Below are positions 8,869 to 10,402 of a stretch of DNA of 55,825 nt, one piece after another. This stretch comes from Candidatus Yanofskyibacteriota bacterium. GTDB taxonomy: Bacteria > Patescibacteriota > Minisyncoccia > 2-02-FULL-40-12 > GWA2-44-9. The stretch spans positions 1 through 55,825 of the forward strand of contig JACPNL010000010.1 of assembly GCA_016185505.1 (NCBI GenBank), written 5' to 3'. The position numbers and the translations under genes are program-made. The notes under the pieces were generated by a model. The model saw only the letters and a list, made by a program, of their open reading frames with translations. It ran no database searches and was not told the origin of the DNA. Within the stretch, counting starts at the first letter, position 1. Each line of letters starts with the position of its first letter.

Positions 8869-8925
8869 TATTTTAATACTTGGGATGAAAATTTAAAGAC
8901 CCCTATTGGGGCCTCTTGTATCTTA

Positions 8926-9172
8926 TCACGAAAAACAAACTCCGTATTTTTCACAAGCTAACACAAAATCTCTGATAAAAGGACCCTCTATCATGTCTAA
9001 TAAATTATGCCGTCTTCCTTGTGTTTTTATCCATGCCCCCGTCTTTTTTAAGAAAGAGGAATTCGGAGAATTTATCCCACGGATAGCGACTTATTACGGA
9101 TAACCGCTCAAGGTGTTCGGGGCCTTGCATAGATAAAAATCGTCCATCAAAAGACACCCGCAACTTTCTCAC
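8926..9172 (-). pseudogene. Small gene broken by a frameshift
   Basis: A GTG at 9172 opens a frame reading RKLRVSFDGRFLSMQGPEHL that stops at 9005. From an A6 run onward a second frame continues the protein-like sequence as KTGAWIKTQGRRHNLLDMIE ...LACEKYGVCFS and stops at 8926. The join needs one A fewer in the run. The combined product would be about 81 residues. Neither part reached the ORF-track length cut-off in the right frame; the + strand ORF 8906-9103 is its shadow. It is either a decayed gene, a sequencing error in a homopolymer, or a frameshifting site. A GACCCC/GGGGCC hairpin lies just beyond its end at 8899-8914. Family unknown. Confidence 0.5.
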
Positions 9173-9316
9173 TTAGCGCTCCGTATACACCCCATAAAAC
9201 AAAAGGTCAACGAGTGTTGATAAGATCATTGACTTTTCACATACCATTTGCTATTCTTACATCATAAACGGCTTCGGCCTCGAAACACCCGCAAGGGTGT
9301 TTCAGACTTTTAGGGC

Positions 9317-9430
9317 TTAAAGAGCTTTTACCGCCTTATCCAGTTTATTGAATTGGTCTTCGGGCAGAGTGGCTATTTTATCTAATCCATCATCTGATTT
9401 TCTTGCGTCCCCCTTTGTGACGAATTCGGC
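9317..9430 (-). pseudogene. C-terminal remnant of an unknown gene
   Basis: The minus strand reads EFVTKGDARKSDDGLDKIAT then LPEDQFNKLDKAVKAL and a stop at 9317. It has good protein character but no start codon; upstream it runs into a stop and then a tRNA-Pro fragment. The stretch between this remnant and the frameshifted gene (9173-9316) holds a GAAACACCC hairpin at 9282-9303 and nothing else I can name. Confidence 0.4.
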
Positions 9431-9438
9431 CTATAATT

Positions 9439-9477
9439 TCGGGCCGCCCAGAGTCGAACTGGGTCTAACTGGTCCCA
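9439..9477 (-). pseudogene. 3' half of a second tRNA-Pro
   Basis: Matches the intact tRNA-Pro at 9712-9782 from the anticodon (TGGGACCAGT) through the T arm to the acceptor CGGCCCG. The 5' half is replaced by unrelated sequence. The downstream flank (TAGGCC.AATTC) is also shared with the intact copy, so this is a duplicated piece. Confidence 0.7.
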
Positions 9478-9504
9478 CCCTGAAGTAGAATTTTGCGAAT
9501 CTTG

Positions 9505-9538
9505 TCGGACTGCCCGGATTCGAACCGGGACTAACCTA
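9505..9538 (-). pseudogene. 3' half of an interrupted tRNA
   Basis: T arm CCCGG TTCGAAT CCGGG followed by acceptor strand CAGTCCG and discriminator A. The matching 5' acceptor strand CGGACTG with a D arm lies about 370 bases upstream at 9884-9907. No canonical anticodon arm joins them; instead a 14-bp hairpin (CCTGCGACTTGACC...) lies directly 5' of this piece. Confidence 0.55.
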
Positions 9539-9584
9539 CAACTTTGACCTCTTTCCGTCGGTCAAGTCGCAGGCCCGCCTCATG

Positions 9585-9613
9585 GCTGAAAATCGCCGAT
9601 TGCGATTTTCAGC
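9585..9613. repeat. Palindrome in the tRNA region
   Basis: GCTGAAAATCG / CGATTTTCAGC arms, 7-base loop. Confidence 0.7.
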
Positions 9614-9625
9614 ATCGCTCCGGCA

Positions 9626-9677
9626 CTTGAATCGTAAAGAAAACATAAAGCAGTTTATGTTTTCTTTACGATTCAAG
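9626..9677. repeat. Long palindrome in the tRNA region
   Basis: Perfect 24-bp arms (CTTGAATCGTAAAGAAAACA...) around a 4-base loop. Confidence 0.85.
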
Positions 9678-9711
9678 CATCCCAACCTATGGTAGAATTT
9701 GGCCTAATATG

Positions 9712-9782
9712 TCGGGCCGCCCAGAATCGAACTGGGTCTAACTGGTCCCAAACCAGTCGTACCACCATCATACGCCGGCCCG
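9712..9782 (-). tRNA. tRNA-Pro (TGG)
   Basis: CGGGCCG/CGGCCCG acceptor, D arm GTAT/GTAC, anticodon stem ACTGG/CCAGT with loop TTTGGGA (anticodon TGG), T arm CCCAG TTCGATT CTGGG; 71 nt, no encoded CCA. Positions 8-9 read GC instead of the usual T-purine. The gene is flanked by perfect 19-bp inverted repeats at 9685-9703 and 9790-9808 (ACCTATGGTAGAATTTGGC), so the precursor could fold into a long stem that holds the tRNA. Confidence 0.85.
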
Positions 9783-9825
9783 ATTAAGAGCCAAATTCTA
9801 CCATAGGTCAAGAACGTCTCGCCTG

Positions 9826-9884
9826 CCCCGCACCAACCCCGCCCCCTTTTTGAATGGCGGTCAGCGGATAAGGTTGGTGCGGGG
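9826..9884. repeat. GGTCAGCGG-core palindromic element interrupting a tRNA
   Basis: 13-bp terminal inverted repeats CCCCGCACCAACC with a core GAATGGCGGTCAGCGG. It sits directly against the D arm of the interrupted tRNA. A related, nested element lies inside the glycosyltransferase gene at 52754-52876. Confidence 0.7.
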
Positions 9885-9907
9885 TGCTACCGTTACACTA
9901 CAGTCCG
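9884..9907 (-). pseudogene. 5' half of the interrupted tRNA
   Basis: CGGACTG TA, then D arm GTGT AACGGTA GCAC, in perfect tRNA register. The sequence then runs into the GGTCAGCGG element. The acceptor strand is fully complementary to CAGTCCG at 9506-9512. Confidence 0.6.
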
Positions 9908-9944
9908 GTCTTAACGCAAAATTCACTACGAAACTTAATTTTTG

Positions 9945-10016
9945 TCTCCTCGCGAGGAATCGAACCTCGATTCGCGGCTTAGAAGGCCGCTGTTTTATCC
10001 GTTAAACTACGAGGAG
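9945..10016 (-). tRNA. tRNA-Arg (TCT)
   Basis: CTCCTCG/CGAGGAG acceptor, D stem GTTT/AAAC, anticodon stem GCGGC/GCCGC with loop CTTCTAA (anticodon TCT), T arm CGAGG TTCGATT CCTCG; 72 nt, no encoded CCA. Its 5' end overlaps the last codons and TAG stop of the HNH gene. Confidence 0.93.
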
Positions 10017-10336
10017 GTTGATTTTTTGCCTAAATTTAAAAACTGATTATAACTTTTACGTCTGTGACAATTGGCACATCGTATCTTGCACTTTTTAATT
10101 TCTAAGAGTATAGATCTCCAGGAATTATGTCCCGATAACATTTTTGCAATCGGCCTTCTTTTCCGACTAGGATTTATATGATCAAAATCTAGAACTCTAG
10201 GATCTTTTTCCCCACAATCAACACATTTTTTATTTGATAAAAAAGCTGCCATTTGCTCTCTTATCCTAATTCTGTATCTCTTTTGTGCTTTATATAATTG
10301 TTCCCTGTATTTGTATGGCATTTTTGGGTTATACAC
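10007..10336 (-). CDS. HNH endonuclease next to tRNA genes
   Basis: 109 residues. The HNH signature is complete: CVDCG and CANCHRR as zinc-ligand pairs framing LDFDHINPSRK, where the His acts in metal-dependent DNA cleavage. The N-terminal half is basic (REQLYKAQKRYRIRIREQ), suited to DNA binding. Start is GTG 10336 (or ATG 10321); no strong ribosome-binding site. The stop codon lies inside tRNA-Arg, and the start lies just after a truncated tRNA 5' half, so the gene fills the gap between two tRNA pieces. It may be a free-standing homing nuclease that inserted in a tRNA locus; no group I intron core was recognised. Confidence 0.85.
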   Translation of the reverse strand: MYNPKMPYKYREQLYKAQKRYRIRIREQMAAFLSNKKCVDCGEKDPRVLDFDHINPSRKRRPIAKMLSGHNSWRSILLEIKKCKIRCANCHRRKSYNQFLNLGKKSTSS

Positions 10337-10364
10337 TACCTATTCTAACCCGACTTTGATTGCA

Positions 10365-10402
10365 TTACAAGCTATCTGTTCTGTCCATTGAACTACGAGG
10401 GG
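10365..10402 (-). pseudogene. tRNA 5' half ending at the anticodon loop
   Basis: CCCCTCG TA GTTC AATGGACA GAAC A GATAG, then loop CTTGTAA: 38 nt in exact tRNA register with T33 and A37/A38 in place. The apparent anticodon is TGT. The 3' half is missing: GATAG has no clean partner, and the HNH gene follows. It resembles the adjacent tRNA-Arg over the acceptor and D arm. Confidence 0.55.

Follow-up and report, generated by a model that had tools for sequence, protein, structure and literature searches.

The window, a 55,825-nucleotide stretch of DNA from a Candidatus Yanofskyibacteriota bacterium, contains a cluster of intact and broken tRNA genes together with palindromic structures, an RNA element (E) and a short open reading frame (ORF). 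Every part of this locus lies on the minus strand; coordinates are those of the whole window, and X denotes an outer tRNA gene whose parts are separated by the other features.

10366–10402, minus strand: 5′ half of a broken tRNA, preceding the HNH-like ORF
10007–10336, minus strand: HNH-like ORF of 109 aa, directly upstream of tRNA-Arg; a separate insertion system
9944–10016, minus strand: intact tRNA-Arg(UCU) (anticodon TCT in DNA), from a tRNA call; the order Arg then Pro also occurs in relatives
9915–9929, minus strand: inverted-repeat arm GTAGTGAATTTTGCG upstream of X, read from the sequence; pairs with 9497–9485 except at 2 nt
9884–9907, minus strand: 5′ part of X, CGGACTG and D arm (the “type 2” outer tRNA-Pro(UGG), read as native from its orthologues at L048, L060 and L036)
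9821–9884, minus strand: dispersed palindromic element of ~60 bp between the D arm and anticodon arm of X; more copies in G000:C6, C17 and C19 and in genomes of the family
9812–9820, minus strand: GAGACGTTC, 5′ strand of the X anticodon arm by comparison with relatives; break in the anticodon loop near T33/T34
9790–9808, minus strand: left arm, inverted repeat enclosing the inner tRNA-Pro
9711–9782, minus strand: intact inner tRNA-Pro(UGG), “type 1” (anticodon TGG in DNA), from a tRNA call
9685–9703, minus strand: right arm, inverted repeat enclosing the inner tRNA-Pro
9675–9684, minus strand: TGGGATGCTT, 3′ part of the X anticodon loop and 3′ strand of its anticodon stem, by comparison with relatives
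9626–9677, minus strand: helix A of element E, TTGAATCG...CGATTCAA (P0/P1), with the guide in its 3′ arm
9535–9628, minus strand: core of element E, helices B and C (model R1, 97.4 bits)
9505–9534, minus strand: 3′ part of X, comprising the variable region, T arm and acceptor CAGTCCG, by comparison with relatives
9485–9497, minus strand: inverted-repeat arm CGCAAAATTCTAC downstream of X, read from the sequence
9440–9477, minus strand: 3′ half of an outermost “type 1” tRNA-Pro, whose first base is the anticodon T34; 5′ half missing

Most of the parts named in the original prediction were recovered. tRNA-Pro and tRNA-Arg were both called as intact genes, the two halves of X match at 7/7 acceptor pairs and form a perfect T stem (CCCGG/CCGGG), and the intact tRNA-Pro and the palindromes were all located between these halves, as had been described. 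The additional tRNA-Pro 3′ half starting at the anticodon and the tRNA 5′ half at the far end of the locus were likewise present. The inverted structures comprise a 24-bp perfect hairpin (9626–9677), a 12-bp hairpin (9585–9613), the palindrome with its 13-bp arms (9826–9838/9872–9884) and a 19-bp perfect inverted repeat (9685–9703/9790–9808) that encloses the intact tRNA-Pro. The claimed HNH nuclease stood in part: the ORF exists and has a CxxC..H..CxxC layout, but Pfam does not score it as HNH. The two decayed genes said to border the area were not borne out; positions 8890–9450 contain no long ORF, and two tested fragments gave no Pfam match.

Because X shares its D arm, anticodon stem and 3′ part with the ordinary tRNA-Pro(UGG) of relatives (e.g., CGGGCTGTGGTGTAACGGCAGCACGAGACGTTTGGGACGTTTTAGTCCCGGTTCGAATCCGGGCAGCCCGAC at L048), it is, on sequence comparison, the native type 2 tRNA-Pro(UGG) gene, now broken. 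This agrees with the earlier proposal of one tRNA split by insertions, the ordinary genes at L048, L060 and L036 being orthologues of X. Three inserts interrupt X: following the D arm, the 60-bp palindrome; in the anticodon loop, the type 1 tRNA-Pro(UGG) with its inverted repeat; and ahead of the T arm, element E. The inner copy was the sole tRNA-Pro(UGG) among 36 tRNA matches, the other proline tRNAs having anticodons CGG and GGG; in this genome (681 kb, 32 contigs, 95% complete), “only” means the only one found. With no other tRNA-Pro(UGG) found, X appears to have decayed and been replaced. The original prediction had likewise held decay to be likelier than joining in trans, and the genome-wide tRNA check that it proposed placed the intact copy of the same isoacceptor inside X itself. 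X is flanked by an imperfect inverted repeat (9929–9915 and 9497–9485), and the order of the parts can be read as a three-layer stack, with a lost outermost type 1 tRNA-Pro, then X, then the intact inner type 1 copy.

Comparison with sister genomes, also proposed at the outset, revealed the same arrangement elsewhere. When 95 relatives were searched at the DNA level, the order X, palindrome, tRNA-Pro and element E turned up again in another genus (G011, locus L032) at 83% identity; there the outer acceptor is CGGGATG/CATCCCG, and the inverted-repeat arms around the inner tRNA have changed in sequence yet still pair. At a second locus in the window's own genome (G000:C25, L064), an intact tRNA-Val(CAC) lies in the anticodon loop of a broken outer tRNA whose orthologue in relatives is the native tRNA-Val(CAC) of the same locus. 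In a systematic scan, an outer acceptor and D arm before an intact tRNA, with the matching T arm and acceptor after it, were found in 6/434 contexts versus 6/2162 re-paired controls; the G011 case was left out of these six, its outer T stem being incomplete. The inner tRNA was proline in four of the six cases. Nesting of tRNA-Pro within tRNA-Pro occurred in G011, G033 and G003, and in G033 the two types have changed places, with type 1 as the outer and type 2 as the inner tRNA. Plain random decay was rejected on the recurrence in G011 together with the nested tRNAs in G033 and G003. The description of the locus as a scrap yard was thus partly right: the broken tRNA pieces are real, but they are not random, since they include a conserved structured-RNA copy and a nested isoacceptor that recur elsewhere.

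Several other loci contain related arrangements. At L009 (G000:C29), the two halves of an outer tRNA-like gene (GCCCCCG ... CGGGGGC) enclose a tRNA-Thr(CGT), and a hairpin follows the D arm as in X. At L001/L018 (G000:C7), a tRNA-Lys(CTT) occupies the loop of a palindrome (TCCCGATAA..TTATCGAGGATCC), possibly a further nested case, as judged by eye only; a broken tRNA-Lys-like 5′ half, interrupted in the D loop, directly precedes this palindrome. Three loci (L055, L057 and L259) share a second motif, CGGGAATGC..GCATTCCC CGGCGCGAAGCG, which follows the nested tRNA-Pro within the outer tRNA's anticodon loop and maybe represents a separate anticodon-loop element.

The segment after the inner tRNA (9677–9535) is one copy of the structured-RNA family E, for which a first covariance model was built from nine copies. 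Covariance-model searches revealed 6 matches in the window's own genome, copies in 51 of 95 relatives with at most 7 per genome, and copies in 33 of 379 genomes of a phylum-wide sample. Among the matches listed in an exact-pattern scan of 84,980 species, those that were confirmed by the model and had a named phylum belonged to Patescibacteria, plus three to Elusimicrobia, and listed pattern matches in other named groups failed the covariance model; on the matches listed, E is nearly confined to Patescibacteria. A phage origin was rejected, as three pattern matches in IMG/VR were unconfirmed by the model and a phage collection gave zero matches. No Rfam family matched E, whereas the same search found a group I intron and a tmRNA in other E-carrying loci, and the literature searched, which leaves out most subscription journals, contained no description of it. 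Relative to Rfam 15 and that literature, E is an undescribed RNA element.

E is ~150–200 nt long, with no room for a gene, and consists of three helices: A, which carries the guide; B, with a GGA/GA internal loop; and C, often with a GGAA loop. In 48 aligned copies, standard pairs occupied 94.6% of cells compared with 69.9% in shuffles, 24 of 26 pairs were changed on both sides compared with 17.1 in shuffles, and covariation was 0.597 compared with 0.198. Since this alignment had been fitted to the covariance model, an unguided fold test was run with MAFFT and RNAalifold on 28 copies; it recovered the same helices B and C, plus one in which the guide pairs with the downstream repeat, with compensatory double changes in 26 of 31 pairs. 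The strong covariation supports the predicted three-helix RNA fold.

For most copies of E, an intact tRNA, which can be of almost any isotype, lies ~20–150 nt upstream. A tRNA or tmRNA was called within 420 nt upstream of 90/110 copies and none for the other 20, and some of this roughly one-fifth lie at the ends of protein genes. One host in the window's own genome is tmRNA. From their translations, we take the hosts at four loci (L147, L211, L220 and L202) to be the zinc-finger C terminus of topA, and others presumably are the ends of rpsR, rpsI or Xer-like genes. At the four topA-like loci the zinc-finger end is repeated beyond E in a partly diverged form, as if it were another allele's. One further locus (L134, G002:C1, 600–1250) carries a tRNA-Met with a group I intron in its anticodon loop (RF00028, E-value 4.6e-10) and a copy of E downstream.

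After E there is usually a second copy of the host gene's 3′ end, a repeat of about 5 to ~60 bp. Statistics on flanking repeats were set aside, since masked neighbours (N) had matched one another and the loci had been picked for containing E. The repeat after helix C commonly corresponds to the tRNA from T-loop C56 to about C74, sometimes through the terminator; a second class, found in Kaiser- and Nomurabacteria, lies at the tRNA 3′ end and is accompanied by a few repeated bases only. In most copies the host gene is already completed by the upstream sequence. The ~10 nt before the E core form the guide, which is complementary to the start of the repeat, and in a fixed register its match to its own host exceeded that to other hosts (0/5000 permutations). 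The helix between guide and upstream copy also covaries (60 vs 21 double-change cells), and at tmRNA and C14 the upstream copy is mutated and the guide has changed to match. Because the guide can pair with either copy of the gene end, two exclusive folds exist. The covariation of the guide with mutated upstream copies (tmRNA at C32, C14 and C25) suggests selection in place, and it counts against a purely dead insert.

The distribution of E at one conserved locus was uneven. Downstream of a gene ending GPHEK...LG[LI], the tRNA-Val(CAC) is followed by E in five genomes (G000, G001, G014, G032 and G013); in other genomes the same locus contains an intact tRNA and an unrelated trailer, and E is absent. 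Tandem and truncated copies also occur, and among the genomes compared none showed a near-identical empty site. From this patchy presence at a conserved place and the tandem and truncated copies, we infer the behaviour of a mobile element. No association was detected between E and the protein families considered. Reverse transcriptase occurred in 27/51 E-positive and 22/44 E-negative genomes (p 0.84), Y1 transposase in 29/51 and 23/44 (p 0.68), and tyrosine recombinase in 45/51 and 40/44 (p 0.75), most genomes having just one of the last. E as a retroelement needing a resident reverse transcriptase was rejected, PF00078 being absent from 24/51 E-positive genomes, as was an origin from IS200/IS605, since 22/51 lack the Y1 transposase (PF01797); twelve E-positive genomes lack both. 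A reverse transcriptase supplied from outside might still serve E. An integrase-driven element with its own recombinase was rejected as well, as no gene fits and there is no tie to tyrosine recombinase.

In terms of identity and architecture, as distinct from mechanism, the locus is probably best explained by insertions stacked within the native tRNA-Pro(UGG) gene that follows tRNA-Arg(UCU), the structured element E being one of them. E itself would be small, encode no protein and be mobile, or have been so once; it would enter conserved genes in their 3′ parts and leave them whole, because its upstream flank supplies the same 3′ end or that end is duplicated. The nested-tRNA form would be a harsher version, in which insertion destroys the native tRNA and its role passes to a cargo tRNA of the same isoacceptor, so that loss of the insert would become costly; the outer X in the source genome would be a dead remnant. 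As for mechanism, it is conceivable, if somewhat doubtful, that E is RNA-catalysed or RNA-guided, its structured RNA directing the element's own insertion at the 3′ ends of tRNAs and other conserved genes through a host-matched guide that swaps between the copies of the gene end, and with E in some lineages carrying a replacement tRNA that prevents its loss.

E might instead be an immobile, functional 3′-end RNA domain of tRNA and other genes, acting in processing, stability or termination. Its position on the host strand at gene 3′ ends, the terminator-like character of helix A and the covariation of the guide with mutated upstream copies are consistent with such a role; however, the patchy presence at the same conserved locus, the different hosts in sister genomes, the tandem and truncated copies and the repeat of the host gene end argue against it, and we regard it as unlikely. 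Excision of E as a self-splicing, intron-like ribozyme in the T loop, joining the tRNA body to the downstream copy, appears decidedly unlikely. Folded transcripts of L082 and C25 are predicted to form a tRNA with the downstream or outer tail, the two ends of the inserted E coming together; tertiary structure is suggested by the GGAA loop and the internal loops, and group I introns in tmRNA use T-loop sites (PMC11915505). However, splicing is unsupported because the host gene is completed by the upstream copy in all cases that allow a judgement, including the clear ones; in addition, E has no group I core, while a true group I intron scores, the base before E is not U at topA and acceptor-end sites, and helix A is often terminator-like. 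Splicing could still occur at X and C25, where the downstream part alone completes the outer tRNA; each of these loci also has an intact tRNA of the same isoacceptor, so the outer tRNAs need not function.

The remaining alternative concerns X itself as a working split tRNA whose halves are joined in cis or in trans. Its 7/7 acceptor pairing, maintained by compensatory changes in G011, would fit such a gene, but the acceptor differences may predate the insertion, X of G011 lacks the 5′ strand of the T stem, the anticodon loop of X is broken and an intact tRNA-Pro(UGG) is present. A split tRNA is therefore very improbable.

The other inserted parts have distributions of their own. The ~60-bp palindrome (CCCCGCACCAA..TTATCCGCTGACCGCCATTCA..TTGGTGCGGGG; window 9884–9821, L061, L063 and L062) is dispersed in the family. 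It lies in frame within a Mur ligase (L061) and a GT2 glycosyltransferase (L063) of G000, where it adds a near-identical stretch of ~30 aa, PTTNPAPSLSADRHSERGRAWSGAGNRQPTT, and in the same genome it is also found beside or inside a 5S-like rRNA. In-frame entry into protein genes is common to this palindrome and the Rickettsia palindromic elements (PMC10969869). Homologues of the HNH-like ORF lie directly upstream of tRNA-Arg in four other genomes (G017, G043, G069 and G081) and at tRNA-Arg(TCG) in G000:C7; a broken tRNA 5′ half precedes the ORF both in the window and in G043. The ORF possibly encodes a homing nuclease tied to tRNA-Arg.

The E family is widespread and covarying, carries a host-matched guide and lies at tRNA genes of a large uncultivated lineage, and integrases of its own, group I introns and resident reverse transcriptases do not explain it. 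If E is mobile, it would point to protein-sparing or RNA-guided DNA insertion at gene ends. The nested tRNAs, in which an essential tRNA is destroyed and the cargo replaces it, make a selfish “tRNA replacement” testable. tRNA halves in Patescibacteria should be checked for nested copies before they are read as split tRNAs.

Split or permuted tRNAs are known from archaea and algae. X resembles them in having halves that lie apart in the genome; unlike them, it is broken by inserts, its anticodon loop is not intact and an intact copy replaces it, and with this broken loop and intact replacement a split or trans-joined tRNA was rejected as the main reading. Integrative elements and genomic islands insert at the 3′ ends of tRNA, tmRNA and conserved genes. 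E shares with integrative elements the 3′-end site, the intact host gene and the repeat of the 3′ end on the far side, but it has no gene, a single core across many hosts, a host-matched guide and a covarying RNA fold. The tmRNA gene has been noted as a site of integrative elements (PMC11915505). Casposons (PMC6977970) also target tRNA 3′ ends and have a repeat on both flanks; they carry Cas1, terminal inverted repeats and a 14–15 bp duplication, whereas E has no gene and its repeats, unlike a fixed target-site duplication, vary from about 5 to ~60 bp.

Like E, the group I introns of the tmRNA T loop (PMC11915505) are structured RNAs at T-loop sites, but E has no group I core, is not always preceded by U and leaves its host gene whole without splicing. 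RF00028 gave no match at an E-value ≤1 at L082, L107, L120 and L199 and none in the window core, and with the positive control matched (L134, E-value 4.6e-10), E as a group I intron was rejected; E also departs from the preceding U and terminal G of these introns, as A or G precedes it at topA and acceptor sites and many copies end in C. MITEs and Rickettsia palindromic elements (PMC10969869) are short, protein-less and dispersed, as E is; E, in contrast, is no simple palindrome, has a conserved multi-helix fold and lies at the 3′ ends of genes.
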